The notes beneath the pieces were generated by a model, which did no database searches, was not told where the DNA came from, and saw only the letters and a list, made by a program, of their open reading frames with translations. Positions 7,872-26,567 of a stretch of 54,551 nt of DNA are shown piece after piece. Source of the stretch: a virus; IMG/VR virus record IMGVR_UViG_3300027754_004594, positions 1-54,551 of that record. One strand, given 5' to 3'. The number at the start of each line of letters is the position of its first letter. Position 1 is the first letter of the stretch. Both the position numbers and the translations under genes were made by a program.

Positions 7872-7900
7872 ATACTGCTGCTCGAACAGAAGGGTGTCAA
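7872..7900 (-). promoter_or_regulatory. Promoter TTGACA-N17-CAGTAT before recA
   Basis: TTGACA on the minus strand at 7895-7900 and CAGTAT at 7872-7877 with a 17-base spacer. The ATG of the recombinase follows the -10 box by 11 bases. It is the only good host-type promoter I see for the replication operon. Confidence 0.55.
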
Positions 7901-7931
7901 GAAAATTACAAGGCTACCTGAATAGAATGTG

Positions 7932-9098
7932 TTATATTTTGTTTAATTTATCTGCAAGTTCTAACAGATTGGCAACTTTAACCTGAGAGTGGATTCCTAC
8001 ATAAGTACCATTATTGTGTAAAAAAATAGAATTGGGATAATTGGAATGGTCTGAGAAATACTCTTTAACGCACGTCTGGTAACCTAAAAAACCAGAGACT
8101 ATTGGTCGGTATTCTATTCCCAAGCTTTGACATAGTTTGATGATTTCTGATTTATTTGAATGTTTTGAAATGATAGGCAAACAAAACGGGACATCTAAGC
8201 TAAGGGGTCTCTCTTCGCAAAAATAAAACTTGTCTTTGTCAAGACTTTCTTTGAATATTTTATATAAATTTATTCTTTTTTCTTTGTATTTATTTATTCT
8301 ATTAAAGTCTAAGATCCCAATAAACGCATTGAGGTCGGTGCTTCTAAAATTGTTCCCTAGAGAATAAAAATCAAAAAGAGCATCTACCGAATCGTTCCTA
8401 TATTTAGTATCATCTACGCCGTAGGGAGCTAAGCTTCTTGTCATCCCGTGATTTCTTTGCATTAAAAAATATTCAAACTCCTCCTTTGAGTTCGTGAATA
8501 TAAACCCGCCCTCAATAGATTGCAATTGGTGCCCGAAGTAGGTGGATGTGGACGACGTGAAGTAAGATGAAACATTTTCTTGATTAAATTCTCCCAGCGT
8601 ATTCTCGCAATTATCAAAGTAAACCCTAACGCCATACTTATCTTGAAGTCTTTGGTAGAAACCCATGTCGGGAGAAAACCCAATTAAAGAAGTTGGGAAA
8701 ATGCAGGCAATTTTTTTTTGGTTTTTTACAACGAAGTTTTCTAGCGTAACCTTGTCTATAGAGAGGTCTTCCATCGAAACATCAATAAAGTGAGGCTCAA
8801 ACCCCTCTCTTATCCAAGGAGAATAGGAGGTTTGCCAAGTCGTAGACGGAAAGATGACTAGATTTTTTTTTGCGAAATGTTTTGATGAGTCTTTTACGTA
8901 TTGAGCCATCAACATGTTAGCTGTCGAACCACTAGAGACAAATACTGCATACTTGCTTCCAACGTATTCCGCCATCAACTTTTCAAATTCTATGACTTTG
9001 GTATTTTGAGTCCATTTATTCTTCCTATCCAGAATGAAAGAGGCGATTCTAATCTTATCCCAAAAATTAAAATTATTAATATTAAGAGGCCAATTCAT
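7932..9098 (-). CDS. DegT/DnrJ-fold PLP enzyme with His at the lysine position (ColD-like 3-dehydratase)
   Basis: 388 residues of the DegT/DnrJ/EryC1 family: SSGSTANMLMAQ binds phosphate of the cofactor and YFDNCENTLGEF supplies the ring-stacking Asp. The residue that is normally the Schiff-base Lys, six residues before EGG, is His here (TYFGHQLQSIEGG). In the family this substitution marks sugar 3-dehydratases such as ColD (GDP-4-keto-6-deoxymannose-3-dehydratase) and RfbH rather than aminotransferases. The Gmd homologue at 22107-23213 makes the ColD substrate, so a GDP-3,6-dideoxyhexose route is plausible. It is the last gene of the glycan island and overlaps the upstream glycosyltransferase gene by 17 bases. 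Confidence 0.85.
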   Translation of the reverse strand: MNWPLNINNFNFWDKIRIASFILDRKNKWTQNTKVIEFEKLMAEYVGSKYAVFVSSGSTANMLMAQYVKDSSKHFAKKNLVIFPSTTWQTSYSPWIREGFEPHFIDVSMEDLSIDKVTLENFVVKNQKKIACIFPTSLIGFSPDMGFYQRLQDKYGVRVYFDNCENTLGEFNQENVSSYFTSSTSTYFGHQLQSIEGGFIFTNSKEEFEYFLMQRNHGMTRSLAPYGVDDTKYRNDSVDALFDFYSLGNNFRSTDLNAFIGILDFNRINKYKEKRINLYKIFKESLDKDKFYFCEERPLSLDVPFCLPIISKHSNKSEIIKLCQSLGIEYRPIVSGFLGYQTCVKEYFSDHSNYPNSIFLHNNGTYVGIHSQVKVANLLELADKLNKI

Positions 9099-10131
9099 GT
9101 TTTTTGAGAATTCTTATTAAGTTTTCAGCCGTGTCAGACCATTTCCACTGATTTATTATAGGACTCCTTAAATCTAAATTCTGATAAATACTCCAATTTA
9201 CATATATATTTTTTAGTAATGAGGCGTATTCTTCAACATCAAAATCATAAAACCTAGGCTGCTCAGAGTAGGAGAAGCTGCCGTAGCTATTGATTAAGCC
9301 CCACTCGTCGCATAATTCAGGAAGTTTTTCTGAAATATTAACTTCTTTTGAAGGTTTGATTAAAATTCCATAATTTTTATTTACTAAAATATTAGTCGGG
9401 GAAAAGTCTCCCGTTACAACCAAAGCCCCACACGCGGACATTTCGTGAAGTGGAAATCCCCAAGAGGTCATTCTCAACAGATTCAGGCCGACGTGAGAGG
9501 AGGAGTATAGGTCTCTAATTTCTTGTCTTGTGAATCTTCTTGAGACGTAAACGATTTGAGACCCTTTGTCTTGGAATTCTTTTATTTTATTTATTAAGGT
9601 GGGATTGTTCTGGTTTGTGTCTTTTATAATTAGTTGAATATCGGGATTATTTTGAAAAGCTGAGTGAAAAGCTCTCACTGTTAAATCCAATCCAGATCTA
9701 ACGTTACTGTTGTTTACGTGAATAAAAGTAAATTTTTTATTTTTTACAATTGTTGGTTTCCAAAAGTCTGTGTCGCATCCGCAATGCAGCGTCTCGCACT
9801 GAATTCCTTCTTTTTTATACAAATCAGAAACTTGATCACTCATTCCTAATAGTATTTTATTCTTTCCCTTCAAGGATTCAATATGAAAGTTAGTTAGCTT
9901 ATTGATTGTTTCCCATACTGTGATGTAAAACATTTTTTTTCCAGAGAACTCTTGCGTAAAATTGAGACTGGAGGGAACGCCAACCCACTCCGAGCCTCTT
10001 AAGTCGGAGTATTTATTTATTTTTTTTAACTCGTTGTTTATTCCGTAGTTGATGACGGAAAAAGATCCGTGATCGTCCGAAAATATCGGGTCGGACATAA
10101 ACCTTGGGTCGTCTTCATAAAGATGAATCAT
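9082..10131 (-). CDS. Glycosyltransferase, GT-B fold (GT4-like)
   Basis: 349 residues. The C-terminal Rossmann domain begins FTFIHVNNSNVRSGLDLTVRAF, and the donor-binding segment SSSHVGLNLLRMTSWGFPLHEMSACG has the acidic residue in the position of the GT4 EX7E motif. It presumably transfers a nucleotide-activated sugar; donor and acceptor cannot be told from sequence. It overlaps the dehydratase gene downstream by 17 bases and the FkbM methyltransferase gene upstream by 4. Confidence 0.8.
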   Translation of the reverse strand: MIHLYEDDPRFMSDPIFSDDHGSFSVINYGINNELKKINKYSDLRGSEWVGVPSSLNFTQEFSGKKMFYITVWETINKLTNFHIESLKGKNKILLGMSDQVSDLYKKEGIQCETLHCGCDTDFWKPTIVKNKKFTFIHVNNSNVRSGLDLTVRAFHSAFQNNPDIQLIIKDTNQNNPTLINKIKEFQDKGSQIVYVSRRFTRQEIRDLYSSSHVGLNLLRMTSWGFPLHEMSACGALVVTGDFSPTNILVNKNYGILIKPSKEVNISEKLPELCDEWGLINSYGSFSYSEQPRFYDFDVEEYASLLKNIYVNWSIYQNLDLRSPIINQWKWSDTAENLIRILKKHELAS

Positions 10132-10817
10132 ATTCTAGGAATTAAAATTATATTACCTGACCTCGTTGAAAAATCTTTCCTCCTTGCTTCGCGACGGTTA
10201 TCGTCTCTCACGGCGTCATAATCCATTTTTTCAATTACATCAAATAAAAGCTCCGACACTAGCCTCTCATGCCACCATTCGATAAAGTATACTGGCTTAT
10301 ATTCTTTCGAAAATGAAAGTAGATTTTCTAAAATCAAAAAATCCGTTCCCTCAGTGTCTATTTTTATGAATCGGATTTTAAAAAGATTTTCCTTATAATG
10401 GTTGTTTAAAAAAGAATTCCCGTTTACGAACCGGAGCCTGCAATTAGTAAACCTGCCTTCGTTAGCAAAAAGATGTTCGTCTATTATCCCCCCGTTATCT
10501 AAAGAGGGACTTGTGCAAAAATCTTTTTCACAATCGCGATCTAGTATTCCAAAATTGTGAATCTCAAAATTTGATAAATGAATGTTATTATCGATGTTGT
10601 GTTTTAGCCAGGCTATCACTGGGGAAGGTTCAAATGCTATAACTTTACCGCTTTGCCCCGCAAGATAACCCATGGCGAGAGTCGAGTCTCCAGAACTTGC
10701 CCCCACGTCAATTACCCAATCCCCCTCTTTAATAAAGTCGGTAAATTTCTGCCCGAACTCCTCAAGCTCTCTTTCGTAGTTGCTATGAATTGGGTGTTTA
10801 TAATTGTTGAATTTCAT
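10128..10817 (-). CDS. FkbM-family SAM-dependent methyltransferase
   Basis: 229 residues with the FkbM Rossmann pattern: WVIDVGASSGDSTLAMG (motif I), VIAFEPSP (acidic end of strand 2) and FIKIDTEGTDFLILENL, the family hallmark. FkbM enzymes usually O-methylate sugar hydroxyls, so this one probably caps or modifies a glycan. It overlaps both neighbours by 4 bases. Confidence 0.88.
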   Translation of the reverse strand: MKFNNYKHPIHSNYERELEEFGQKFTDFIKEGDWVIDVGASSGDSTLAMGYLAGQSGKVIAFEPSPVIAWLKHNIDNNIHLSNFEIHNFGILDRDCEKDFCTSPSLDNGGIIDEHLFANEGRFTNCRLRFVNGNSFLNNHYKENLFKIRFIKIDTEGTDFLILENLLSFSKEYKPVYFIEWWHERLVSELLFDVIEKMDYDAVRDDNRREARRKDFSTRSGNIILIPRI

Positions 10818-11833
10818 AACGTAACGCTGTTCATAAGGATCTGTAATCTTGAAACACTATTTTCCCAAGTAAATTTTTGAGCCTCAACAGATCCGAGCTT
10901 GCTGATTCTATCTCTAAGAGCCTTATCTTCTAACATCTCTCTCATTTTTTCTTTTACGCTTTGTTTTTTAGGTATGGACCACTTGGGCGGTTTTACACAA
11001 TAGGATGGATGAAATAAATGATTTCTTAACCCGATTTGGTCCGCTTGAATTATATCGTTTTCAGTGAAGAATTCCAAACAAAAGTCAACATGGAGAGCTG
11101 ATAATCTATCTACCGTGTAGTCTCTTGGGCCAGCGTAAGGAATAACTATCAATGGAGTCCCAGAGCTCATACACTCTATAGTTCTCAAGTTCCACGTACT
11201 GCTTTTGTTTAAACAAATTGCAGCATCGGCACTGTAGTAAATATTTTTTTCTTCCTCGAAGTCTTCTAGGTCTCTGTCGTCATGAAGTATTTCGACGCTA
11301 TATTGCAAAGCTTTGTTCTGAACCCAAGTCTTAAACGTCGCACAAGCGCCTCGATCACGAAGGTAAAGTTTTATAGATTTTTCATTTTGGAACTCTTCGC
11401 AAAAACTTTCGACAACGAGCTCCAGTCCGCCTCTCGAATTCGATTCACCCACGCCAAGAAGCGTAAATTTGTCAGTTGGTTTTTTTTCTCGATATTTCCA
11501 AATCTGAGCGTCTACCCCTAGTGGGAAATAAGCAGACAATGCAGCGGGATAACCAGACTCTAATATAAAATTTAAATTATCCCTTGAAACTCCAAAAATT
11601 GGTTTGGGATACGAATTTTCAAGAATAAATCTGGGGAAAATCATTTCATAAACAATAATAATTGCATGTGGATTATGTCCGTGGTGATTACCGACACAAT
11701 CGTAGACAATCCTGCGAGCTTTGTCGCTGTAAATGTCTAATTTTTTAGCGGCGTTATTTAAGCTTGATATGATAACGTCGCTACTGCAAAATTTTTTATT
11801 ATTAGGATCCCCTAAGATTTTAATTTTTTCCAT
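10814..11833 (-). CDS. Glycosyltransferase, GT-B fold (GT4-like)
   Basis: 339 residues. The C-terminal half FTLLGVGESNSRGGLELVVESF, followed by YYSADAAICLNKSSTWNLRTIECMSSGTPLIV, is the GT4 donor-binding domain with its acidic motif. The N-terminal acceptor domain is divergent. It belongs to the same glycan operon, 1 base downstream of another transferase gene and overlapping the FkbM gene by 4. Confidence 0.8.
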   Translation of the reverse strand: MEKIKILGDPNNKKFCSSDVIISSLNNAAKKLDIYSDKARRIVYDCVGNHHGHNPHAIIIVYEMIFPRFILENSYPKPIFGVSRDNLNFILESGYPAALSAYFPLGVDAQIWKYREKKPTDKFTLLGVGESNSRGGLELVVESFCEEFQNEKSIKLYLRDRGACATFKTWVQNKALQYSVEILHDDRDLEDFEEEKNIYYSADAAICLNKSSTWNLRTIECMSSGTPLIVIPYAGPRDYTVDRLSALHVDFCLEFFTENDIIQADQIGLRNHLFHPSYCVKPPKWSIPKKQSVKEKMREMLEDKALRDRISKLGSVEAQKFTWENSVSRLQILMNSVTL

Positions 11834-11834
11834 T

Positions 11835-12821
11835 TTAAGATTCTCGGCAAATACTAGTGAGGCAACCTAATACAGAGTTAATCATATTCTCTTCGCAATG
11901 ATCTAACCCTGCGTCATAGCAATCTCGTTGGGAAATTTTATCCCTCGCTTCCCAAGCTTTTACAAAATCTGATTCGTTTCTTATGAAAAATCCATTTACG
12001 TTTTCCTTAATGAAGTAGTTCCAGCCTCCAACGGGAGAGGCTAATATCCCACACCCGTAGCTGGCAGCTTCCTTCCCTGCTAGCGTAGCGGAAATAGGAT
12101 AATTTTGAAGCTGCGTGTTCAGTTTGGCTCTCTTGTAAAATTCAGATTTAGTTTCAGAATTTATGACTCCTAAATAAAAAGTATTTTTATTGTCTATGTA
12201 ATTCATTAATGGATACCCAAGCTCAATTGGTCCAGCAAAATAAGTTTTAATGCTGTATTTTAAAGCAAGTTGAGCCACTTCAACTGACCGGTAACTGGAG
12301 AAATTTCTGGAACATTGGAAGACTATATCTTCCTTGGGAAACTCTTTAAATGGTTCGAATTTAGGTCCAATAACGATTTTAAAAATCTTATGTGGACCTG
12401 TCATTTGAGGTTCTTGACAAACGGTGTCAAAAAGTAATACGTTTTTATTTTTCGGATTAACAAATTCCCGCCACCCGACGGGCCACACCGCTTGATTCTT
12501 GCTTCTGCACTCACTCAAATTTAAATAAACATAAGAAAAGTGATGTAAAAATATATCATATTCATCAGCATTAGAGATGTATTTTTTGATACTTTCTCCA
12601 TTTTTAATAGCTTGTCTAGAGTCGCTGTCTAATGCAAAGCATTGATTTTGCTTTGATAGATCAATATTCAAAAAAGATTTAGGATTCGAGTATATATCGA
12701 ATGTTTCAATTTTATACAATAAAGCTGACGCGATGACTCTGCCTCCTCCGTATTTTTTAGGCGAATGATGATAATCCTCTACGGTGTCATCAAAATTCAT
12801 ATCGATATAAGCTATTTTCAC
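11835..12821 (-). CDS. Probable glycosyltransferase, GT-B fold
   Basis: 328 residues. The N-terminus (MKIAYIDMNFDD...KYGGGRVIASALL) has the glycine-rich loop of GT-B transferases. The region ISATLAGKEAASYGCGILASPVGGWNYFIKENVNGFFI resembles the GT4 EX7E and 'G.G....' donor-binding block, with a Lys-Glu pair in place of the first acid. Donor and product are unknown. It sits in the middle of the glycan operon. Confidence 0.68.
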   Translation of the reverse strand: MKIAYIDMNFDDTVEDYHHSPKKYGGGRVIASALLYKIETFDIYSNPKSFLNIDLSKQNQCFALDSDSRQAIKNGESIKKYISNADEYDIFLHHFSYVYLNLSECRSKNQAVWPVGWREFVNPKNKNVLLFDTVCQEPQMTGPHKIFKIVIGPKFEPFKEFPKEDIVFQCSRNFSSYRSVEVAQLALKYSIKTYFAGPIELGYPLMNYIDNKNTFYLGVINSETKSEFYKRAKLNTQLQNYPISATLAGKEAASYGCGILASPVGGWNYFIKENVNGFFIRNESDFVKAWEARDKISQRDCYDAGLDHCEENMINSVLGCLTSICRES

Positions 12822-12832
12822 TTTCGCTAATG

Positions 12833-13468
12833 CTATTTTCTTCGAGAAACTAGGTCCATAATTATATCATTAGGATTCATTTCTTTATAGAAAAGGTTTT
12901 CTATATCTTTAATTTGATAATCATTGTAATATTTAGGGTTAATATACCAATCTTCGAGATATTTCTTACCGGCGAATGCTAAACCAACATTCTCTACTAT
13001 CATTTTATACGGTTTGTTTTTCATAAAAGAGACTAGAGCGTCTTTTTGATATTGACCGTGGGGGTTATATAAATCATGTTCGATAGTTAAAATCCTAAAG
13101 TCGAAGTCTTCGAATGGAAATCTTGACAAAGCTTCGACGCAAGGGTCTTGAATTGAGCCAGTGGGGTCGATATCTATAGAAAGATAATCAATTACTTTTG
13201 GGCAATGTAATGCAATAAAAAGCTTTTTATAATCAATATCGAACGCATTAGCCTGTATGACGTGAGACTTCGGTCTAAACCTTGTAGCTTCTTGAACGTA
13301 ATCCGAGCGCATTTCGAGTAAGATTCCCGTCCACCCAATTTCTTCCAACCATGCGTTGTTAGACGCGCAGGGTTCCCCCTCTCCATTGCCGGCTCCAATG
13401 TCAACGTAATAACCGTTCCGAGATGGGAGCAGCAAGTTGACGAATAAATCTTGTTGTGATAGTGCCAT
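12833..13468 (-). CDS. FkbM-like methyltransferase
   Basis: 211 residues. GYYVDIGAGNGEGEPCASNN is SAM motif I, followed by WTGILLE for strand 2 and VIDYLSIDIDPTG, the FkbM-type 'SIDVEG' position. Similar small FkbM proteins modify polysaccharide sugars. Together with the gene at 10128-10817 it makes two candidate O-methyltransferases in the island. Confidence 0.8.
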   Translation of the reverse strand: MALSQQDLFVNLLLPSRNGYYVDIGAGNGEGEPCASNNAWLEEIGWTGILLEMRSDYVQEATRFRPKSHVIQANAFDIDYKKLFIALHCPKVIDYLSIDIDPTGSIQDPCVEALSRFPFEDFDFRILTIEHDLYNPHGQYQKDALVSFMKNKPYKMIVENVGLAFAGKKYLEDWYINPKYYNDYQIKDIENLFYKEMNPNDIIMDLVSRRK

Positions 13469-13471
13469 AAA

Positions 13472-14743
13472 TTATTTTCCTTCTATTAAAAACTTAGGTA
13501 AGGGGAAAATAAATTTGGTGCCATTGTTAATTGCGTCAGTTTCTCTTTGCAGGATTTCGTTTTTAAAATGCCAAGGACCGACTAAGTAATAATCCGGTTT
13601 CATTTGTTTACTTTCCTCTTCTGAAATTATTTTTATTCCGTTTAAGGTCTCCGCACCAAATTTTTCAGAGCTTCTTTCGGCGGCGTATTTTATATATTTA
13701 CTCGTATCGTCCCCAAGGCAATACCCTAAAAGAACATTAACCTTAGTTGAGGCTCCATATAAGTGTATTGTTTTTTTATTCTTTAAGACTTCTTGATTTA
13801 AGAATTTAACTAATTCATTTTTTTGATAAATTATTCTATTCTTAAAATCTTCGTAAATTTTATCCTCATCAAGAGCCATATCAAACTCCTTAAACCGCAA
13901 ACGCATCAGAGCGTCGCTTCTCTCTTGAGTATCGTAGTCGAAGTTATTATTTTTAACTGCGTAACAGCAAATGCTTCCGCCGTTTATGTCGTTTGTTTCT
14001 GCGTATATAAGCCTAAGACCAGCTTTTTTTAAAAGATGTTCAATTGGAGCAATATGATAATGTTCGAGATGCTCGCTGCAAAAGGTGTCGTAACATAAAT
14101 TTTCAATAACGTCTACGAGGTATGCCATTTCAAAAATCCACACACCTTTATCAGATAAAAGCTTTTCAATGTTTACACAGAAGTCTAACGGATCATCTAA
14201 GTCATAAAAACAAGCTATCGAAGTAATGATATCAAAAGACTTGAGTAAGTTATCTTTTTCCATCTCTGGGCAGGGAAATAGATCGTTGTAAATTTTAATG
14301 TTTGGATATTTTTCTTTAGCTTTCTTGGTAATGTCTGAGGGATCTACTCCGTATAACGAGACTCCCTCTCCGTAATTTAAAAGCAGGGTGGCGTCGTTCA
14401 TCGCTATGTCCAAAACTTTCCGAGGACTCTTTATCATCCTTGTCGCTTTATCGACAATAGACTTGAGGTGGTCTCTCATCGTTTTGCTGATATTTGACTC
14501 GTACCAATAATTTGAATACATGATTTTCGGTGGAATGGTGTGTAAGGTCTGAACCAGTCCGCAGGCATTTTCGTTTTGAGATACGTCACACCTCGCAATT
14601 TTATTAGGAATCTTACGTAGAGAGGTTTGGCCTTTTCCTTCTTTGATAAAAGACCCCTGTAGGTGTTGATAACCTAAATCAATAATTTCTTTAAGATGCG
14701 AATTACCGCAAATCCTACAGGTTTGTCTGTATTTGATATTCAT
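13472..14743 (-). CDS. NDP-sugar C-methyltransferase (NovU/TylC3 type)
   Basis: 423 residues with the three-part layout of sugar C-methyltransferases: an N-terminal zinc-binding CRICGNSHLKEIIDLGYQ segment, a central SAM domain (KVLDIAMNDATLLLNYG and YGVDPSD) and a C-terminal domain starting KTIHLYGASTKVNVLL. The family methylates carbon next to the keto group of NDP-4-ketosugars, giving branched deoxysugars. SEHLEHYHI is the conserved His-rich segment. It overlaps the epimerase-cupin fusion gene by 29 bases. A relative is encoded at 17014-18252. Confidence 0.85.
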   Translation of the reverse strand: MNIKYRQTCRICGNSHLKEIIDLGYQHLQGSFIKEGKGQTSLRKIPNKIARCDVSQNENACGLVQTLHTIPPKIMYSNYWYESNISKTMRDHLKSIVDKATRMIKSPRKVLDIAMNDATLLLNYGEGVSLYGVDPSDITKKAKEKYPNIKIYNDLFPCPEMEKDNLLKSFDIITSIACFYDLDDPLDFCVNIEKLLSDKGVWIFEMAYLVDVIENLCYDTFCSEHLEHYHIAPIEHLLKKAGLRLIYAETNDINGGSICCYAVKNNNFDYDTQERSDALMRLRFKEFDMALDEDKIYEDFKNRIIYQKNELVKFLNQEVLKNKKTIHLYGASTKVNVLLGYCLGDDTSKYIKYAAERSSEKFGAETLNGIKIISEEESKQMKPDYYLVGPWHFKNEILQRETDAINNGTKFIFPLPKFLIEGK

Positions 14744-16100
14744 TACGTTTAGATAAAATTTGATTTTTCAGTTGTTCATCCACAAGAATATAGGAAATAG
14801 TATGAGTAACTCCATAATTTTCATGCTCTCTCTCTCCTCTGACTAAGTTAAGAAAAATCGAGTCTTCAAGAAATACCATTGCGTGAGCAACGTTTGGTTT
14901 AATGACAGCGATGTCCCCAGCTCTAATGACGCGAGTTTCTATATCTGTGTTTTTGTAAGATAAATCTTTAACAACGCTAACGTAGGAACCTTTGATCAGA
15001 AGACATTTCTGCTCTTGGATTGGGTGGTAATGATTCGCCCTCACTGATCCAGATTTAGATTCAATATAACCAATAAGATTAATTGGTTCCGGAAGTTCGT
15101 AATTGCTAATTTTTCCCCGGTCATCTACAAATTCTTTTTGACCATGCATGACATATTCAAGGTCTGAATTTTGTGTTTTTTCAGACCACTTTTCTATCAT
15201 TTCCTCTATAGAATCTTTAAGGTTATAAAGAAATTTGAAACCTGTATTTAAAAGCTTCTTGTTTGAGAGTGTGTATCCAGCATTGGGAATTTCGTCATTG
15301 GTTGTTTGTATCTTCGTTTCAGGCTTATAATTTTTACATATTTCAGCAACGTCTTTCACGGTAACATTCTCACTTGTTAAATGGAACGTCTCGTTTAGAA
15401 TGCTTGAATCTGCCATAAACTTAAAACACCTAGCTGCATCAATCAAAGATACGAGACTTTTATATTGGACTCCACCTGAGAATAGTTTAATGGTTTGATT
15501 TTGAGACGCCATTTTAGAAAAAAGATTTGGCATAATCCCAATCCTCATTGTGTCGGTAGAGTATCCATAAACCGAACCTAGTCGGAGAATGATATATTTT
15601 TTACCAGATTGCTTAATGTCTTGTTCGTTTTGGCATTTACTTTTTGAATAAGTTAGAATGGGACAAGTTAGTTCATCTTCAAAAATATTAAATTTAGTTT
15701 CAGCAAACCCTTCGTAAACTACATGGGTGGAAGGGAAAATGAATTTACAATTATCAGAAATAGATTCTAAAATATTGTTTACACCGACCAAAGCGGTGTT
15801 AATGATTTGTTCATCTTTTTCAGGATCGGCGTCCGTTCTTGTATAGGCAACATCTGTTATTCCAGCTAAGTGAATGACTATGTCAGCACCTTTTACAATA
15901 GACTGGATAACATCTTTATTTAAGATGCTTGTTTGAATAAATTTAAAACCCCAACTCCTAAGTTGGTTCACTCTCTCGGAAATAAAACGATTGTCTATGA
16001 CGGTAACGTCTTTATATCTGGTTTCGCCAGAGTAAATCTTACACAGTTCGGATCCAATATATCCCAAACCGCCAGTGATGATAATTTTTTGCCTATTCAT
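14715..16100 (-). CDS. NAD-dependent sugar epimerase/dehydratase fused to a cupin (RmlC/WxcM-like)
   Basis: 461 residues. Residues 1 to about 310 are an extended short-chain dehydrogenase: IIITGGLGYIGSEL binds NAD and YSKSK is the YxxxK catalytic pair. From about 320 a second domain (EFVDDRGKISNYELP, VRANHYHPIQEQKCLLIKG, RAGDIAVIKPNVAHAM) is a double-stranded beta-helix like those of FdtA/WxcM/RmlC ketosugar isomerases. The fusion joins oxidation or epimerisation with ketosugar isomerisation in one protein. The neighbouring C-methyltransferases also need 4-ketosugars. Confidence 0.85.
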   Translation of the reverse strand: MNRQKIIITGGLGYIGSELCKIYSGETRYKDVTVIDNRFISERVNQLRSWGFKFIQTSILNKDVIQSIVKGADIVIHLAGITDVAYTRTDADPEKDEQIINTALVGVNNILESISDNCKFIFPSTHVVYEGFAETKFNIFEDELTCPILTYSKSKCQNEQDIKQSGKKYIILRLGSVYGYSTDTMRIGIMPNLFSKMASQNQTIKLFSGGVQYKSLVSLIDAARCFKFMADSSILNETFHLTSENVTVKDVAEICKNYKPETKIQTTNDEIPNAGYTLSNKKLLNTGFKFLYNLKDSIEEMIEKWSEKTQNSDLEYVMHGQKEFVDDRGKISNYELPEPINLIGYIESKSGSVRANHYHPIQEQKCLLIKGSYVSVVKDLSYKNTDIETRVIRAGDIAVIKPNVAHAMVFLEDSIFLNLVRGEREHENYGVTHTISYILVDEQLKNQILSKRNEYQIQTNL

Positions 16101-18252: not shown

Positions 18253-19024
18253 AGCTTAAGATTGGTCTAGAGACGTTGTATTTTAAATAAAAGCTATCGT
18301 TTAATTTTAAACAATTATTTAATTCATCCCACTCGTAAGAACAGGGTCCATATCTTAAAGCTTGAAAGCGTAATTTTCTTTGTAGATACTCTTTCGTGCC
18401 GACCCAGCTATAGTGCTTCGGAAAAACGAGAGCTCTAGGGATAGTCAAGGATGAACATTCGATATCTTTTTTTCCATTATCGTATTCTACGAGTTCGTCT
18501 CGATAAAATTTTTTTAATCCTTTGTTTCTATTAACAAACCAAGCTCTAGGAACAATGAAATCATCAACCCATGTAGAGTAGTTGATGCAATAATTTTTGA
18601 AATTAACTTTAAAATAATCTACTAAATTGTTTCGTTCAACAAATTTAATAAACTTTTTAATTTCTTCAATTTCCCACAGTTCGTCAACATTCACCATTAT
18701 GAGCAAATCTACGCCGTGCTTTTTGAGCTGCGTTAAGTTATTCGTCCACATATCGTATTCTTTTTGTGGTGAATCGTAAATTATCAAATCGTCAATTTTG
18801 CCAGCCTCTTGCATTTCTCTTGCCAATTCGCAAGTTCCGTCTGTCGAGTAAATCGGGAAACCCAACTTGTGGGTCTCATCGAAACAGCCATGACTAAAAC
18901 AAATTTTTATATCTGAAATTTCTGGACATAAAGACTTGTCGTTTTTAATCTCATTCCACGGATCGAAACATCTCGATAAAAGATCTTTAGACTCGTAGCC
19001 AATTGAGGTGATTCCAATTTTCAT
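18245..19024 (-). CDS. Probable glycosyltransferase, GT-A fold
   Basis: 259 residues. The layout MKIGITSIGYESKDLLSRCF, then DLLIMVNVDELWEIEEIKKF with a D-x-x-E acid motif, then a His-containing C-terminal VFPKHYSWVGTKEYLQRK segment resembles small GT2-like transferases found in phage and capsule loci. Catalytic residues are not certain. The gene overlaps the C-methyltransferase gene downstream by 8 bases. Confidence 0.6.
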   Translation of the reverse strand: MKIGITSIGYESKDLLSRCFDPWNEIKNDKSLCPEISDIKICFSHGCFDETHKLGFPIYSTDGTCELAREMQEAGKIDDLIIYDSPQKEYDMWTNNLTQLKKHGVDLLIMVNVDELWEIEEIKKFIKFVERNNLVDYFKVNFKNYCINYSTWVDDFIVPRAWFVNRNKGLKKFYRDELVEYDNGKKDIECSSLTIPRALVFPKHYSWVGTKEYLQRKLRFQALRYGPCSYEWDELNNCLKLNDSFYLKYNVSRPILSYD

Positions 19025-19026
19025 CT

Positions 19027-19947
19027 CTAGATTATGATATTGGAAGCGTTCCTATCTGACGCAAGTTTTACTCGAGAAAAATTATTTTTCAAATCTTGAG
19101 TAATTGATTCTGGAGATCCTGAAAATTTAAAATTAAATATTCTGCAAAATTTATCACAAGAAATGGCAAAATCATAAACTTTAGATGCAGACTGTTGAGC
19201 CTCAATGACCTTAATTTTAACTCCAAGAACTTCCGCCGTTTTCCTTCCTATAGTCTCGACGTTAGAGTTGAATGAAGCTAAATTGTAAACGCCTCTCTTA
19301 TTGAAGTTTCCAGTCTGGATAATCAGCTCCATCGCCCGACATAAGTCTTTAATGTCGAGGATCGGTCTTCTTACCGTGGGGTTCGATATCACCACCTCTT
19401 GATTCGCTTGAGCAGAGTAGAACATTGCATTTATCATAATGTCGTTCCTGACGTGAGGAGAGAAACCGTTAACTGTTCCAAACCTAAGTCCATAATAATT
19501 AATCTTATCAAAAATTCTAATATAATGATCAATTTCCGACTTAGATAAGTCGTAAAAACTTCCAGCCACATACTCTTGGCAGTCTTCTGAAACGATGTTG
19601 CGATTAACGTTACCGTAAACGCTTGAACTGCTAGCGTAAATAAACTTTTGCTTTTCAGAAATCTTGGTCATTAAATCAACGAAATACTGAACATTATTTC
19701 GGAAACACCCTATTAAATTCGACTCGCACATCTTAACGCTAGAATGCCCCGCCAGCAATATGACGTCAGAAAATTTAGAGAGGTATTCTTTAGTTAAGTT
19801 TTTAAAATTTTCTTTTAAGTTTAGAACTTCGGGGTTGCCAAATATCTCTAAGTCTACTGAGGTGATATCCATCCCTTTTTCTTTTAGATATCCATAGACT
19901 CGACTTCCGATGTAGCCGCAGCCGCCTAATAATAGAACTTTTTGCAT
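19027..19947 (-). CDS. NAD-dependent epimerase/dehydratase
   Basis: I place the start at the ATG at 19947 because the protein then begins MQKVLLLGGCGYIGSRVYG, the NAD-binding start of the family, and no longer overlaps the upstream gene by about 50 bases. YASSSSVYG and YDLSKSE supply the Ser and YxxxK catalytic residues, and YGLRFGTVNG and RRPILDIKDLCRAM are family landmarks. It is a candidate for the reductase/epimerase step after the Gmd and ColD-like enzymes, but the substrate is inferred only from the neighbourhood. Confidence 0.85.
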   Translation of the reverse strand: MQKVLLLGGCGYIGSRVYGYLKEKGMDITSVDLEIFGNPEVLNLKENFKNLTKEYLSKFSDVILLAGHSSVKMCESNLIGCFRNNVQYFVDLMTKISEKQKFIYASSSSVYGNVNRNIVSEDCQEYVAGSFYDLSKSEIDHYIRIFDKINYYGLRFGTVNGFSPHVRNDIMINAMFYSAQANQEVVISNPTVRRPILDIKDLCRAMELIIQTGNFNKRGVYNLASFNSNVETIGRKTAEVLGVKIKVIEAQQSASKVYDFAISCDKFCRIFNFKFSGSPESITQDLKNNFSRVKLASDRNASNIII

Positions 19948-19948
19948 A

Positions 19949-20860
19949 TTAAAATTTAAAATAAAGGATCTCGTTCCATTTATTATATCCACTTTCAATG
20001 AATTGAAGAATAATTTTCCTATCTACCATAGCCGTTTGTGGGCATGTTAAATTATGATAAACTAAACTAGCGACGTTTTTTGCAGCGGTCTGCATCGGAA
20101 CGCATTCCTCATAATCTTCTTTCCACCTCGACATCCACAGGATATTTTGAAATTTAGGATCTAAGATCAGCCTTGGAATCCCCAAGTGGTAAGCTAAGTG
20201 ACTAGGCCCATTGCATGAGAATATCCCATAAGAACTTTTCTTCAGAAGGTCTAGCGAATCATTAAAACTCAACACTTGATCTATAACAACGTTTTTAAGA
20301 AAAGAAACTGAAAAATCTGATTGATACTCTATCTGTTTTACCCATTTTTTAATAAACGGAAAGTATATAGTATAATCAGGGAGTTTCTCAGCTAATGAAT
20401 TAAGAAGTAATGGAATGTTTTTATACATATGATCTGCTCCATTACTGCTTAACCCGCAGTAAATGATCTTTTCTTTGATGAGCGGGTTGTCGGCGAAAAC
20501 TCTTGTTTTTTTTATTATTTGTGGAGTTAGTCCGTATTCGTTATATTTAAAACTCAACGGATTCAAGAAGAGGAGATCGGGAACATTAAATGTGACGGAG
20601 TTTGAATTATATTTATTTTTTATATAATTTAAAACTTTAAGATCGTGTTCGACAGCGTTGTGATTGGCGACGCTTTCGTCTACATTCTCCAAATTAAAAA
20701 TTTTTCCGGCGACGTGATTCAATGGGTTAAAGACTTCTGGTCTGGCAGATATTAAATTTTTATGAAGCACTCCTTGCCGCGTTAGTAGATAGGAGATTTG
20801 CAAAGATAGGCAGCAGTCTCCGATACCGTGTCCGCCAATATTTAAAAGGGCTTCACTCAC
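19949..20860 (-). CDS. GT9-like (heptosyltransferase-fold) protein
   Basis: 303 residues. The N-terminus LLNIGGHGIGDCCLSLQISY matches the GT9 'GDxxxxxP' loop, and SSYGIFSCNGPSHLAYHLGIPRLIL is the C-terminal 'DSGPxHLAxAlG.P' donor-binding block with Cys-Asn replacing Asp-Ser. GT9 enzymes transfer ADP-heptose to LPS. It overlaps the following half-GT9 gene by 4 bases. Confidence 0.72.
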   Translation of the reverse strand: MSEALLNIGGHGIGDCCLSLQISYLLTRQGVLHKNLISARPEVFNPLNHVAGKIFNLENVDESVANHNAVEHDLKVLNYIKNKYNSNSVTFNVPDLLFLNPLSFKYNEYGLTPQIIKKTRVFADNPLIKEKIIYCGLSSNGADHMYKNIPLLLNSLAEKLPDYTIYFPFIKKWVKQIEYQSDFSVSFLKNVVIDQVLSFNDSLDLLKKSSYGIFSCNGPSHLAYHLGIPRLILDPKFQNILWMSRWKEDYEECVPMQTAAKNVASLVYHNLTCPQTAMVDRKIILQFIESGYNKWNEILYFKF

Positions 20861-21408
20861 GTCGATAGTAGTTGCATTATAGCGTTAGAGATATCTTCGG
20901 GTTTATGTTGGTTGATATACTCTTGAGCCGCATCGGGATTGTAGAACGGAGACAATCCAGCCATGTCGGGGATAAAAATTTTATACATGTTTAAATCTCC
21001 AAAATACGGCCTACAGTTATTAAAATTGATACTTCCACCGAATAAGATTACCATGGGCTTTCTATAATGGTCAGAGAGGTGCATGCAAAAACTATCAATC
21101 CCCAACAAAAGGCTACATTTATTTATTATGAAAGCTGTTTGACTAAAGGATGAAGTTTGTATTTTTAAGCAATGATTATAACTTATATCAGATGAGTCTA
21201 TTTGAATTATTGATATTTCTTTAGACTGCAAGAATGGATGAATTAAATCAATAACCTCTTGCCATTTATTATAAAATTTTCCTAAGCCTTTCGAGTGGGG
21301 ATTGAATACAATAAACTTTTCTGGTAAATTAGGACAATGACATTCTTTAATTAATGGTTTTTCAATTTTAAGCCCGCAAGACAAAGCGTATATTTCAACA
21401 ATGTGCAT
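20857..21408 (-). CDS. GT9 heptosyltransferase-like, C-terminal half
   Basis: 183 residues corresponding to the second half of a GT9 protein: KFIVFNPHSKGLGKFYNKW is the strand and Lys motif at the start of the C-terminal domain, and SLLLGIDSFCMHLSDHYRKPMVILFGG is the 'G.DSg..H.a.....P.i.lfG' donor-binding block. It begins exactly where the preceding gene, which encodes the matching N-terminal half, stops (TGA, two bases, ATG). The two would work only as a heterodimer or after a frameshift. Confidence 0.78.
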   Translation of the reverse strand: MHIVEIYALSCGLKIEKPLIKECHCPNLPEKFIVFNPHSKGLGKFYNKWQEVIDLIHPFLQSKEISIIQIDSSDISYNHCLKIQTSSFSQTAFIINKCSLLLGIDSFCMHLSDHYRKPMVILFGGSINFNNCRPYFGDLNMYKIFIPDMAGLSPFYNPDAAQEYINQHKPEDISNAIMQLLST

Positions 21409-21410
21409 AG

Positions 21411-21737
21411 TCAGTATTTAAGATCCAAAGCAATTCTATCTTTACCGTTATGCGTATAAGTTATTATTCTTTGAGTTTGGATATGTGGAATTAGGCAAAT
21501 TTCAAACAGTCTAGGGCGCGGCCCAATCCCTTCCATAGCAAATATATTATCCATTTCCGGCTTGTAGTCAATAATAAAATCTATATAAGGATTGCCTTCA
21601 AGTATGCATTGATACATTGGGTTGGTTGCAAAATATATCTTGTAATCAGGATACGTTTCTCTTAAACTCCTAAGAAGAGATGTGCAAAGTAAAACGTCAC
21701 CAGCTCCCTCGGGCATTACAAAGAGCAGATTGTTCAT
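21411..21737 (-). CDS. GT9 heptosyltransferase-like, N-terminal half
   Basis: 108 residues: MNNLLFVMPEGAGDVLLCTSLLRSL matches the GT9 start ('GDvll.tP.l..Lr'), and YKIYFATNPMYQCILEGNPYID matches the following strand-helix. The protein stops after DRIALDLKY, just before the region continued by the next gene in a different frame. Either the split is natural or this is a frameshifted single gene; nothing obvious such as a slippery run is seen at the junction. Confidence 0.75.
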   Translation of the reverse strand: MNNLLFVMPEGAGDVLLCTSLLRSLRETYPDYKIYFATNPMYQCILEGNPYIDFIIDYKPEMDNIFAMEGIGPRPRLFEICLIPHIQTQRIITYTHNGKDRIALDLKY

Positions 21738-22117
21738 CTCGAATTGAAAAGACCCAAGAAATCTTTTAAAGAGTTTGGTTTTTTATTAATAGATACTTGC
21801 TCCGCCACTGGGCGGTCTTCCAATTCTATACGGTCTTTTCGAAAAGATGTTGATTGGTATCTTTTAACGTCGTCAATGAATTTCTTCCCAGCTCGCGAGA
21901 TAAACCAAGCCAAAGAATTTAATCCTATCATTCCCTTCATGGACATGAAAAACTCAAAATTGTATTTTTTAACAAGGCTCGTTGCGAGCTTCATCTCTCT
22001 CGGCCAGTCAATTTTATCATAATTTTTTTCTATGATGAAAGCCGCAATGATTTGTTGCTGTTTCGAGATAGCCCTCTTCTTTAAGATTTTCGCAACTTTG
22101 GTTTTTTTAGGCTCCAT
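21734..22117 (-). CDS. Hypothetical protein within the glycan operon
   Basis: 127 residues that I do not recognise. It is basic and helical in appearance (KKTKVAKILKKRAISKQQQ; YDKIDWPREMKLATSLVKKY) with no signal peptide or membrane segment. It overlaps the half-GT9 gene by 4 bases and the Gmd gene by 11, so it is very likely translated. A regulatory or scaffolding role is possible but not supported. Confidence 0.7.
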   Translation of the reverse strand: MEPKKTKVAKILKKRAISKQQQIIAAFIIEKNYDKIDWPREMKLATSLVKKYNFEFFMSMKGMIGLNSLAWFISRAGKKFIDDVKRYQSTSFRKDRIELEDRPVAEQVSINKKPNSLKDFLGLFNSR

Positions 22118-23213
22118 GTTTAATGGTGAGGGGTCTTTCTTCAGAAGTCAAGATGCTTATATCATTTTTAACCATTCTTGAGACGAGTTCTTGGAAAGAG
22201 ATTTTGGGTTGCCAGTCAAGTTCTTTCCTGGCTAAAGAGGAGTCTCCTAACAAAAGATCTACTTCCGCCGGTCTGTAAAATTTAGGATTTATTTTAACTA
22301 AAACAGAAGACTTTACGTCGTGTTCTTCAACTAAATAGTTAGCAATAGAGAACTCTTCGCTTGACCCGTTTCCATGCCAACAGCCTTCAATATTTGCGTT
22401 TTTAAACGCTAAGTTAACGAACTCTCTGATTGAATGACTTTCGTTACTAGAGAGGATATAGTTTTTAATTGGAGTTTTTTGATTAAGCATCTTCCAAATC
22501 CCCTCTACGAAATCTTCAGCGTGACTCCAGTCTCTTTTAACGTCTAGGTTGCCAAGTTCTATCGGACTGAATGAGTGTTTATTTTTTATAGCTTGATTGA
22601 TTCGAGCAACTCCTTTTGTGATTTTTCTCGTCACGAACTCTTCCCCTCGTCTTTCTGATTCGTAATTAAAACACCAACATTGAATAGCGTATAAGTTATA
22701 GCTTTCTTTATATACTTTAACAATTTGTCTTGCTGCGACTTTTGACGCTCCGTAAGGACTTCTGGAAGAGGGCGGGTGATTTTCGTCTTGAGGCGTATAC
22801 TTAACGTCCCCGAACTCCTCGGAAGATCCAAAATTTAAATACTTTGTGTGTGGGGAGCATTTTCTTATAGACTCCAACTGCCTTAGAACACCGAGACAAT
22901 TATATTCAAAGTGTTGTTCTGGGCATTGCCAACTTGTTCCCACGAAGCTATTGGCGGCAGAATTAATAAAATAATTTGGTTTATATTTTTCAATTAATGA
23001 GGATATAGAGTGGGAATCTCCTAAATCCATTATCTCTAAAATAAAATTAGAATTTACTATATGCTTAATATTCTGAGTATTGGGGACGCTTAATCTTCTT
23101 GTAGCTCCGATGACTCGAATGCCTTTTTTTAATAAAAAATCAGCAAGATAAGAGCCCATTTGTCCCGTTACTCCGGTGACTATTGCGACTTCATCTTGTT
23201 TAGTTTTATCCAT
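22107..23213 (-). CDS. gmd: GDP-mannose 4,6-dehydratase
   Basis: 368 residues. AIVTGVTGQMGSYLADFLL binds NADP, GATRR is the Gmd-type strand 2 end, FGSSEEFGD and YGASKVAARQI hold the catalytic Ser/Glu and YxxxK, and the C-terminal FYRPAEVDLLLGDSSLARKE block is characteristic of Gmd. It converts GDP-D-mannose to GDP-4-keto-6-deoxy-D-mannose, the precursor of GDP-fucose, GDP-rhamnose, GDP-perosamine and GDP-colitose. No fucose synthase is obvious, but a ColD-like enzyme lies in the same island. Confidence 0.93.
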   Translation of the reverse strand: MDKTKQDEVAIVTGVTGQMGSYLADFLLKKGIRVIGATRRLSVPNTQNIKHIVNSNFILEIMDLGDSHSISSLIEKYKPNYFINSAANSFVGTSWQCPEQHFEYNCLGVLRQLESIRKCSPHTKYLNFGSSEEFGDVKYTPQDENHPPSSRSPYGASKVAARQIVKVYKESYNLYAIQCWCFNYESERRGEEFVTRKITKGVARINQAIKNKHSFSPIELGNLDVKRDWSHAEDFVEGIWKMLNQKTPIKNYILSSNESHSIREFVNLAFKNANIEGCWHGNGSSEEFSIANYLVEEHDVKSSVLVKINPKFYRPAEVDLLLGDSSLARKELDWQPKISFQELVSRMVKNDISILTSEERPLTIKHGA

Positions 23214-23241
23214 ATTATTGATTTTTAAATTTTACTAGTGA

Positions 23242-23973
23242 CTATAGCATTAATAATTCACTAGATGAATATATTTTAGGTAAGTCCAGAACGATTTCAA
23301 GAATATTATTTTCTTTACAGAATACGGATTCTGAGGGTTCTAGGTTTCCGGCTTTTCGATCTCCGCTATTAAAAAGGGAGATGGTTGAATTGGGATTTTC
23401 TAGTTTAATTTTTGCTAAAGTGTTGACTTGAGCTTTGTCCGAATCTATAGAGATTATGCATTCGTCAACAGCTTTTAAATTTTGCATTATTTGTTGTCTA
23501 TGAGCTTCATTCATGAACGGTTTGCTTTTCTTTAAGCCTACCTGTAGGTCGCTATTTACTATAACTATCAAATACTTACATCGTTCTTTAGCCTCGTTAA
23601 GGTATTGTAAGTGCCCTAAATGTAGTGGGTTAAAGTATCCAGAAGCTATTCCAATTTCTGATTTGTTTTTTATTTTAGCTCGCCAATCTAAGGCGTTTAT
23701 AGCCTTGTCGTCGATGAAGAGATCGACATTGGGTTTACCTTCATCAACTAGCTCATGATACTTAACACCCCAATTGCTTAGTTGGCTAATCGTAAGGTCG
23801 TGATAATCTCGGCCAGATCCGCGACCTCTAGCTGTAAATATGATTATATAATGCCCGTGTTGATGTAGAATATTTATATTATCTACAACATCTTGGAACG
23901 GAAGACTTTTAGCATACTCCCCGCTGTTAGTTAAGGAGCAAATTGTTCCGTCTATATCAAACGCATATCTCAC
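23242..23973 (-). CDS. HAD phosphatase fused to a HldE-C-like nucleotidyltransferase
   Basis: 243 residues. Residues 1 to about 105 are a HAD domain: FDIDGTIC has the nucleophile Asp, IIIFTARG is motif II and VDLFIDDKA is motif III/IV. From about 108 a cytidylyltransferase-fold domain follows: SGYFNPLHLGHLQYL contains the HxGH motif (here HLGH), then CKYLIVIVNSD. In ADP-heptose synthesis a HAD phosphatase (GmhB) and the HldE nucleotidyltransferase act in consecutive steps, so the fusion may perform both. The overlap with the kinase gene is ATGA. Confidence 0.82.
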   Translation of the reverse strand: MRYAFDIDGTICSLTNSGEYAKSLPFQDVVDNINILHQHGHYIIIFTARGRGSGRDYHDLTISQLSNWGVKYHELVDEGKPNVDLFIDDKAINALDWRAKIKNKSEIGIASGYFNPLHLGHLQYLNEAKERCKYLIVIVNSDLQVGLKKSKPFMNEAHRQQIMQNLKAVDECIISIDSDKAQVNTLAKIKLENPNSTISLFNSGDRKAGNLEPSESVFCKENNILEIVLDLPKIYSSSELLML

Positions 23974-24704
23974 AACGACACGACTCCTTTTAATCGAACA
24001 ACTTTAGACCCACACTCGTTGGCGAACGCAATCGCAGACCGGACATCCTCAGAAAGCCCGTATTTATAAATAAGACCGGCAAAAAAAGAATCTCCAGCGC
24101 CAGACACGTCTCTTACCTCAACCTTTTCAACTGGAAAATTCTCCCCGTTAAAAAAACATCCTTCTGATCCTTTTGTGTAGATTGTTTTATTAAATAAATT
24201 TTTAGGCATTGTGTTTTTTGATCTATCGAATTCTTCTTCGTTTATTTTTATATATTTGCAATTATTAGCCCATTCTCCGAGTCTTTTTTTGCTATCTAAA
24301 AATACATTTTTGTGATTGTTACATATATATTCCACGTCTTCTTCTTTAAGGAATCCTTTATCATAATCTGAAATAGCAATTAAATCATAATCTAAAGATA
24401 GCTTGCTAACATCGCATCTTTGCACGTCGCCCTCCCCGGCGTCAACCCTAATAAACATGTGATTAGTTTGGCTGTGCATGTATCTTGTTTTTGTGTAGCT
24501 TTGCCAATTGGGGTTAGTGACGATGTCGCAATGAACATTTAAAGAAGCAATATTTCTTTGAAGGTTTTTAGCCATGCCCGGATTCTGAGTCTTGGATAAG
24601 ATGTTCAGAACAGGGACGGGGACGTCTGGGCAAAGTCTGCTCACGGAACAGTAGACAAACACGTCCCGGCACGAGTCTCCTATTACAAGAATCCTTTTAC
24701 TCAT
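23970..24704 (-). CDS. PfkB-type sugar kinase, HldE N-domain-like
   Basis: 244 residues. The start ILVIGDSCRDVFVYCSVSRL followed by CPDVPVPVL resembles HldE/RfaE domain I ('GD.m.D.y..g...RisPEaPvPv'), and DVSGAGDSFFAGL is the PfkB signature with the catalytic Asp. HldE kinase phosphorylates C1 of heptose-7-phosphate. It is shorter than bacterial HldE-N and lacks the fused nucleotidyltransferase, which is encoded by the next gene. GmhA isomerase is not seen in this window, so the heptose precursor would come from the host or another locus. Confidence 0.83.
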   Translation of the reverse strand: MSKRILVIGDSCRDVFVYCSVSRLCPDVPVPVLNILSKTQNPGMAKNLQRNIASLNVHCDIVTNPNWQSYTKTRYMHSQTNHMFIRVDAGEGDVQRCDVSKLSLDYDLIAISDYDKGFLKEEDVEYICNNHKNVFLDSKKRLGEWANNCKYIKINEEEFDRSKNTMPKNLFNKTIYTKGSEGCFFNGENFPVEKVEVRDVSGAGDSFFAGLIYKYGLSEDVRSAIAFANECGSKVVRLKGVVSL

Positions 24705-25489
24705 TGGTTGATTGCTTGCTTGAAAAACGTAACAACCTCAGAACCTTGCTGAGAGATATTTTTAAATTTAAGAATCTTCATCACCCCATCGCGAATATAT
24801 TGATTAATAAACATCACGTCTCTTGTGTGATCCTCAAAGTCTCCCACGATACAGAAAGTCGGGATTCGCAACATAGAAGACTGAGTTTTGTAACAGCTAT
24901 CTGTCCCCAAAAACTTAGAACAGTATTGTACGCAGGCTAAGCAGCAAACAACATCGTCAAAAGAACAAAATTTAACATTATCACTTTCTTTTAGTCCGTA
25001 ATTAGATAATTCTTTTTCAGAACCAAAGATTAGATAATTAAAATCTTCACTAATTATCTCACTGACGATTGAAGAAGGAATGAATTTCTGCGGCAGGTTG
25101 AACGACGAATAGACGTTAGTAGAGAATTGGCTTCCGAATGGGTGAATTCCTATGATTTTTTTCTTTTCCTTAAAAGAATTTACTAAGCGTTCAGCTATCA
25201 AAACAGCTTCATTTTTAAAAATTAAATTATTATAAAAAAACCTAGGGCAAACTTCAAAAGGCTTCTCCTCTTTGGAGTCGGCACAAGAAAGAATTTCATC
25301 CGTCTGACTGTCGTGATCAGCAATTGTTTCAAAATTATATATTTTTATATTTTCAACACCGAATTCATTGAAAAATTCTTTAGCTTTGCTGAAATGGGTG
25401 TGAATATAATACTCTCGATCCAAGTGAGTCATTGCAAAAGGGATAGTTTGTAAAAAGTCCCCAATTCCACCTCTTATGTATACTTTCAT
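24701..25489 (-). CDS. GT9-like heptosyltransferase
   Basis: 262 residues. MKVYIRGGIGDFLQTIPFAM is the GT9 N-terminal loop, KIIGIHPFGSQFST starts the C-terminal domain, and CSKFLGTDSCYKTQSSMLRIPTFCIVG is the donor-binding block with the 'G.DS' core. It overlaps the kinase gene by 4 bases, so kinase, HAD-nucleotidyltransferase and transferase form one coupled module. It is the first gene of the island and follows NrdB by 16 bases. Confidence 0.8.
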   Translation of the reverse strand: MKVYIRGGIGDFLQTIPFAMTHLDREYYIHTHFSKAKEFFNEFGVENIKIYNFETIADHDSQTDEILSCADSKEEKPFEVCPRFFYNNLIFKNEAVLIAERLVNSFKEKKKIIGIHPFGSQFSTNVYSSFNLPQKFIPSSIVSEIISEDFNYLIFGSEKELSNYGLKESDNVKFCSFDDVVCCLACVQYCSKFLGTDSCYKTQSSMLRIPTFCIVGDFEDHTRDVMFINQYIRDGVMKILKFKNISQQGSEVVTFFKQAINQ

Positions 25490-25505
25490 ATTATTATATT
25501 ATTTG

Positions 25506-26564: not shown

Positions 26565-26567
26565 AAC

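Follow-up and report, generated by a model that had tools for sequence, protein, structure and literature searches.

The window examined here is the whole of IMG/VR virus record IMGVR_UViG_3300027754_004594, a stretch of 54,551 nucleotides. Between recA and nrdB it carries a 17,558-bp glycan-synthesis island (positions 7932-25489), and the gene order of related contigs indicates that this island was not acquired once by a single virus but is resident in a phage family as an exchangeable cassette. Its function is read more tentatively: quite possibly, though short of probably, it serves large aquatic tailed phages as a resident, exchangeable glycan cassette whose acceptor is most likely a virion protein. 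In the roughly 20 years since phage sugar-gene clusters became known, no function has been demonstrated for them, and the combination of a fixed-border slot, a specific predicted sugar and no membrane steps makes a testable system, in which the two candidate acceptors predict opposite outcomes.

The island is filled by 20 consecutive minus-strand open reading frames (ORFs; g1 to g20), all intact, and is flanked by recA/uvsX (6745-7860) and nrdB (25506-26564). It lies within an unbroken array (3-31413) that combines the glycan genes with nrdAB, recA and replication genes at intergenic gaps of -29 to +71 bp; neighboring glycan genes commonly overlap by a few bases. Transcription runs from 25489 to 7932, with g20 first and g1 last. 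Upstream of the block are nrdB, nrdA, a further GT4 glycosyltransferase gene (GT4x) and a sigma factor, and downstream are recA/UvsX, an HNH-like gene, DnaB, primase, an exonuclease and DNA polymerase III alpha, the last split by an exonuclease gene. Most of the 20 genes encode sugar-nucleotide enzymes, glycosyltransferases or sugar methyltransferases, and profile matches back DegT/ColD, GT4, FkbM, two C-methyltransferases, two SDRs, a GDP-mannose 4,6-dehydratase (GMD), an HldE-type kinase, a HAD domain with a nucleotidyltransferase, GT2 and GT9. A 57.7-kb contig, G12, overlaps window positions 1-7033 at 99.9% and carries the same virus on into long structural genes; a near-identity search of the phage collection gave no match.

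A scan with recA gave 28 relatives, and the slot was read, in full or in large part, in G3 (174.5 kb), G5, G7, G10 and G14, as well as in the short G18. Six other IMG/VR contigs have the same flanks and an occupied slot, bordered by sigma/GT4x/u125 on one side and GMD/g16/recA on the other. The neighbor of recA is a small protein in each relative, with GMD just before it and, in G7, two further genes between; the sigma/GT4x/u125 border was seen wherever a contig extends that far, and u125 was not found in G7. Slot length is 21.1 kb in the window (nrdAB included) and 17.6, 17.6, 16.8, 22.1, >14.1 and 5.2 kb in the other genomes. The window and G3 have 15 of 19 flank genes in common, at a median identity of 70%, but only 6 of 22 slot genes; G3 and G7 have 13 flank genes and 2 slot genes in common, and the close pair G3-G5 alone keeps most of the slot (16/21 genes). 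Because conserved flanks enclose such divergent content, we regard the island as a cassette that resides in the family and is exchanged within it. The block g15-g1 sits between g16 and recA in the window and appears to have been added at the recA side of the slot, since close relatives have nothing between these two genes. GT4x is present in 12 of 16 records at 47-70% identity within the family; the other four records are short or partial contigs, or stop before the position where it would lie.

Between G3 and G5, the ratio of nonsynonymous to synonymous variation (pN/pS) comes to 0.27 for the slot and 0.22 for the flanks, values that rest on near-saturated synonymous sites but indicate that the slot genes are maintained by purifying selection. 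The island is not a product of chance, because its frames are intact, homologous modules occur in other viruses and pN is far below pS. A sequence-only reading of this window had described about 20 co-directional genes between recA and nrdB, a description that holds, though g16 is not a glycan gene. The case that it named as refuting it, a bacterial chromosome or a chimeric assembly, is excluded by conserved synteny: the locus is viral because other IMG/VR contigs share its flanks and fill the same slot. It had overlooked the main point, that the island is resident, exchangeable and family-wide.

The nrdAB genes of the window are 85-88% identical to those of a different phage group (L030-L072) to which the rest of the locus shows no such likeness; G3 and G5 have another gene at that place, and the nrdAB of G18 and G7 are distant (24-27%), so nrdAB too is exchanged. 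Breaks at recA or within it, hence at a slot border, occur in the contigs L006, L009, L024, L028 and L029 (L029 is the same virus at 99.9%), which fits slot variation within populations. G3 has a second glycan-gene group (54643-65763) beside its tail-fibre region, including a 1120-residue transferase-like protein and an HldE-like kinase with 56% identity to g19.

The genes of the island and its borders are as follows, in the order of transcription for the island (all on the minus strand; lengths in amino acids, aa).
g20, 24701..25489, minus: GT9-type, heptosyltransferase-like glycosyltransferase, 262 aa; forms the left border of the glycan block; 47-50% identical in G3 and G5; structure model with a predicted local distance difference test (pLDDT) of 76, top Foldseek match GT9 3tov, with WaaF 1psw also matched.
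g19, 23970..24704, minus: HldE domain-I-like kinase (D-glycero-D-manno-heptose-7-phosphate kinase type, PfkB family), 244 aa; PF00294 1.9e-16, TIGR02198 5.6e-30.
g18, 23242..23973, minus: HAD phosphatase fused to an HldE domain-II-like nucleotidyltransferase, 243 aa; PF01467 1.5e-12, TIGR02199, capsule protein 9iqw; retained in the slots of several relatives (60-64%).
g17, 22107..23213, minus: GMD, 368 aa; PF16363 5.2e-99; near recA in every slot examined.
g16, 21734..22117, minus: conserved phage protein, 127 aa; no Pfam match; directly before recA in relatives, by synteny.
g15, 21411..21737, minus: GT9-like glycosyltransferase split in two, here the N-terminal half, 108 aa; a G14 protein of 635 aa matches it at 54% with its C-terminal domain.
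g14, 20857..21408, minus: C-terminal half of the same split enzyme, 183 aa; RfaQ and heptosyltransferase III profiles; 38% to the N terminus of a 390-aa G14 protein.
g13, 19949..20860, minus: tentatively a GT-B-fold glycosyltransferase, probably GT9-like, 303 aa; no Pfam or Protein Data Bank (PDB) match by sequence; 50% homologue in G14; model pLDDT 76, Foldseek matches to GT-B-fold enzymes including WaaC and TibC at a TM value of ~0.45.
g12, 19027..19947, minus: NAD-dependent epimerase/reductase (SDR); PF01370 7.3e-24; start probably the ATG at 19947 rather than 19998.
g11, 18245..19024, minus: probable GT-A-type glycosyltransferase, a tentative class for a protein with no significant match in the profile search, 259 aa; homologues in glycan modules of G13, G14 and G10.
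g10, 17014..18252, minus: nucleoside diphosphate (NDP)-sugar 3-C-methyltransferase of TylC3/TcaB9 type, 412 aa; PF08421, PF13489, PF08484; 4rv9.
g9, 16097..17017, minus: GT2 glycosyltransferase, 306 aa; PF00535 8.1e-13.
g8, 14715..16100, minus: SDR epimerase/dehydratase with a C-terminal cupin (sugar isomerase/epimerase-like), 461 aa; PF01370 9.4e-24.
g7, 13472..14743, minus: second sugar C-methyltransferase, overlapping g8, 423 aa; PF08484 3.7e-32; 56% in G13, 51% in G10.
g6, 12833..13468, minus: FkbM-like methyltransferase, 211 aa; 33% to an annotated FkbM methyltransferase of phage DSL-LC02, 75% in G13.
g5, 11835..12821, minus: GT4-like glycosyltransferase, 328 aa; PF00534 9e-4 (weak) plus homology, 57% in G13.
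g4, 10814..11833, minus: GT4 glycosyltransferase, 339 aa; PF00534 4.3e-6.
g3, 10128..10817, minus: FkbM-family methyltransferase, 229 aa; PF05050 5.1e-9, TIGR01444 1.2e-15.
g2, 9082..10131, minus: GT4 glycosyltransferase, 349 aa; PF00534 8.8e-10.
g1, 7932..9098, minus: ColD-type sugar 3-dehydratase dependent on pyridoxamine phosphate, 388 aa; ColD 2gms 1.1e-38; His190 replaces the lysine that binds pyridoxal phosphate.
recA/UvsX, 6745..7860, minus: right border of the slot; phrog_97 3.1e-33.
nrdB and nrdA, 25506..28859, minus: left side of the slot; 85-88% identical to those of a different phage group, as given above.
GT4x, 29292..30374, minus: core glycosyltransferase of 360 aa, at the left border and not part of the slot; phrog_2170.

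We rejected g16 as a glycan gene, since it is a conserved phage protein that abuts recA elsewhere. A sequencing error behind the g14/g15 split was likewise rejected: the split recurs across phage lineages, as a stand-alone pair in G7 and, with further domains attached, in G12, G13, G14 and G17.

The chemistry of the product can be predicted in part. Solved GMDs match g17 at up to 9e-77, whereas GDP-heptose 4,6-dehydratase reaches only 1e-20 and was rejected as an assignment on score; the GMD active-site S/T-E-Y-K motif is invariant in 8 phages. ColD is the best match of g1, and its His190 aligns with the catalytic His of ColD at a position where aminotransferases have Lys, on which ground an aminotransferase was rejected. 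The His form of the g1 homologue is found in the window, G3, G5, G7, G13, G14, G17 and L002/L003/L010, and the Lys form in L023 and L027. Together, the GMD and the ColD-type 3-dehydratase predict a GDP-linked 3,6-dideoxyhexose. g10 matches the D-mycarose 3-C-methyltransferase 4rv9 at 3.8e-72, and a C-methyl-branched sugar is a probable further product, predicted from the TylC3-like C-methyltransferases and the SDR-cupin protein. The SDR, cupin and C-methyltransferase functions appear tied to one pathway, because cellular homologues fuse all three and g8 of the window overlaps g7 in the same order. The locus thus resembles the bacterial colitose pathway (Gmd, ColD, ColC) in its Gmd and its ColD-type enzyme with the catalytic histidine, but differs in that no ColC is assigned, neither SDR (g8, g12) being matched specifically to it, and in that the C-methyltransferases point to a branched product.

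No membrane step was detected. The flippase Wzx (PF01943), the polymerase Wzy (PF04932) and the initiating transferases (PF02397, PF00953) were found in 0 of 13 records, with positive controls (13 of 14 for Wzx). A simple, crude hydropathy count over the 84 viral loci longer than 12 kb gave no ORF with at least 6 spans, compared to 47 of 67 cellular loci around g10 homologues among the matches listed; the 134 slot ORFs have at most 2 predicted spans. For gtr-type surface conversion, no ORF with more than 4 spans occurs in the window or its relatives, although no search was aimed at the GtrA profile. The contrast in spans shows that only soluble steps are carried, not the reason. The glycan is probably finished in the cytoplasm, and a cytoplasmic acceptor (a phage protein, nascent lipopolysaccharide core or DNA) is probable because only soluble enzymes are present. 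A bacterial Wzx/Wzy O-antigen locus likewise places sugar-nucleotide enzymes and transferases between conserved borders, but the phage slot is without flippase, polymerase and initiating transferase. The sequence-only reading had noted their absence and proposed a genome search for Wzx/Wzy homologues; the search bears it out, and the absence now extends to the 174.5-kb relative and, by span count, to the 84 loci. Its phrase "near-complete" for the polysaccharide locus is too strong, every membrane step being missing. As for its argument that the gap favors protein or virion glycosylation, the gap does argue against self-contained O-antigen export but leaves lipopolysaccharide-core remodeling, whose enzymes are likewise soluble and work at the cytoplasmic face.

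Lipopolysaccharide-type clusters are established in phages, namely in P-SSM2 (24 genes), S-SSM7 and pelagimyophages (PMC3037559, PMC2984593, PMC7029224). Prochlorococcus phage P-SSM2 and Synechococcus phages S-SSM7 and S-SM2 have a similar one-direction block in which transferases and methyltransferases accompany epimerases, among them a GMD homologue; the consulted parts of the sources describe no fixed-border cassette exchange for their clusters. P-SSM2 belongs to another phage lineage, and its cluster, ~12 kb (193428-205500) with at most 3 predicted spans, lies near hli03/phoH instead of in the nrd-recA interval. Among the annotations of the P-SSM2 block examined there is no ColD-type dehydratase, C-methyltransferase or heptose kinase. 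Pelagimyophages, also aquatic, have a hypervariable region rich in transferases and sugar enzymes, with rfaE-type heptose genes, but beside the tail fibres, whereas the region described here is inside an nrd-replication array (PMC7029224). The moraphages, likewise large and aquatic, encode DnaK, DnaJ and several core transferases, but are reported to have PolB, whereas this virus has a bacterial-type polymerase III alpha (PMC12619734). The window likewise encodes DnaK (49736-51646) and DnaJ (52426-53472). The phage sugar cluster as such is thus already known, and the slot arrangement and GMD/ColD core are apparently new: in a limited search of the open-licence literature, we found no description of a fixed-border exchangeable slot in an nrd-replication array, of a core of GMD with a histidine-type ColD, or of the numerical membrane-step contrast.

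A parallel for the acceptor is chlorovirus PBCV-1, which encodes a GMD; its capsid protein is glycosylated by its own transferases, which are mostly soluble and expressed early, a few of them conserved and the rest variable (PMC5408694). It differs in being a eukaryotic virus with scattered genes and a known acceptor. By enzyme family, host GDP-mannose would be dehydrated by g17 and 3-deoxygenated by g1 to a GDP-4-keto-3,6-dideoxy sugar, g7, g8, g10 and g12 would make C-methyl-branched variants, and g18-g19 would activate a heptose-type sugar; about eight transferases and the two FkbM methyltransferases could then join and cap the residues in the cytoplasm. On the chlorovirus analogy, GT4x and a glycosyltransferase pair beside the polymerase would build a conserved base on a phage virion protein, to which the cassette would add a variable outer part. 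We slightly favor virion-protein glycosylation over lipopolysaccharide-core remodeling, because GT4x is broadly conserved, which makes it look as if the phage and not the host determines the base of the glycan, and because a few conserved and many variable soluble transferases match the chlorovirus pattern. Position in the replication array does not decide the matter, since the PBCV-1 transferases are also early. Several points weigh against a virion acceptor and the cassette as a whole: the combination of GT9, heptose activation and ColD resembles that of lipopolysaccharide synthesis, multi-span proteins are rare in phages generally, so that their absence is partly a general phage trait, pN/pS has the saturation noted above, and the genome of this virus is incomplete.

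It is also possible that the enzymes extend or cap the host lipopolysaccharide or lipooligosaccharide core on the cytoplasmic face, altering the receptor and excluding competing phages or progeny rebinding. Core assembly can do without a flippase encoded in the locus, the island has both GT9 heptosyltransferase-like enzymes and heptose activation of the HldE type, cassette swapping suits an arms race, and the 3,6-dideoxyhexose chemistry is of the ColD type, which is typical of O antigens. Such remodeling is favored for pelagimyophages (PMC7029224) and proposed for P-SSM2 (PMC2984593). Against it stand the lack of a multi-span membrane step in all 84 viral loci and of Wzx/Wzy or an initiating transferase in the 13 records, and the conservation of GT4x among phages that have only ~40-50% identity in their flanks and could well differ in host.

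Glycosylation of phage DNA, with the transferases decorating hydroxymethylated bases against restriction, is improbable. The locus does sit among replication and nucleotide genes, and transferases of DNA-hypermodifying phages are known (Pyle 2024, as cited in PMC12619734). However, a PF00303 thymidylate-synthase/hydroxymethylase homologue is absent from 14 of 15 records (the incomplete window, G12 and G3 among them) and present only in G10, and a ThyX-like gene is present, as is an ordinary C5 cytosine methyltransferase. The sugar set far exceeds the need of known DNA-glycosylating phages. In a TET/JBP search no control gave a signal, hence it carries no weight either way.

Non-functional "stuffer" DNA acquired for headful packaging, an idea once left open for cyanophage clusters (PMC3037559) and suited to a slot of 5-22 kb, is very improbable and largely refuted by the evidence of selection: no frame is broken, the genes share a few bases where they overlap, the slot has a pN/pS close to the flank value, and the GMD active-site motif and the ColD histidine are retained.

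The origins of the genes point to circulation of glycan modules among phages, topped up from cells. G14 has homologues of g13, g9, g10, g2, g4, g5, g11, g1 and GMD, and G13, of a distant lineage (recA 29%), has homologues of g4, g2, g10, g9, g5, g6 (75%), g3, g7, g11, g12 and g13; glycan modules thus travel between distant phage lineages. In a tree of g10 with cellular homologues among the matches listed, a strongly supported clade holds six viral rows and one Chthoniobacteraceae metagenome-assembled genome, and the best cellular identity is 42%. The exception is g8, with 54-66% identity to SDR-cupin-C-methyltransferase fusions of Pelagibacteraceae, a patescibacterium (66%) and a nanoarchaeon; a scan of viral contigs with g8 found no relative, and a separate homologue (63%) lies directly before a g10 homologue in huge phage LR756502 (642 kb). 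Recent capture of a whole bacterial island, or a chimeric assembly, is hardly credible: the 66% patescibacterial match of g8 shows that single genes do pass between cells and phages, but other genes have viral homologues as their closer kin, g10 falls in that nearly all-virus clade, g6 is 75% identical in another virus, no cellular locus among the matches listed shares more than a few genes, and synteny in independent viral contigs excludes a chimera.

More doubtful than the cassette with a virion acceptor is its extension to a phage "glycotype" locus, a membrane-free, self-contained assembly line in which a conserved base, built on a virion protein by conserved transferases, would receive 3,6-dideoxy and C-methyl-branched outer sugars set by a fixed-border, replaceable cassette exchanged among unrelated phages. 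If true, bacteriophages would have in it an equivalent of serotype loci that works on the virus particle.

It would be unusual for the split of a two-domain GT-B enzyme, as in g14/g15, to be conserved. The split GT9 lies at 20857-21737 in the window, 34718-35618 in G7, 23871-26937 in G14, 6271-9388 in G17, 8669-11706 in G12 and 78490-82952 in G13. Where the pair lies next to the polymerase, both halves are fusions, the N half with a GT4 protein (~635 aa) and the C half with an additional domain (~390 aa). The 1091-aa GT4-GT9N protein of G13 (78490-81765) appears to hold an internal intein/HINT-like insertion. The polymerase III alpha of the window (3-2930) consists of two ORFs with a DnaQ-like exonuclease gene between them, an order kept in relatives. 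Shine-Dalgarno use and Bacteroidota-type promoter motifs are weak throughout the phage and uninformative as host predictors. A tail-fibre-like gene at 38127-39893 has internal repeats and a G+C content of ~46%, compared to ~37% around it.

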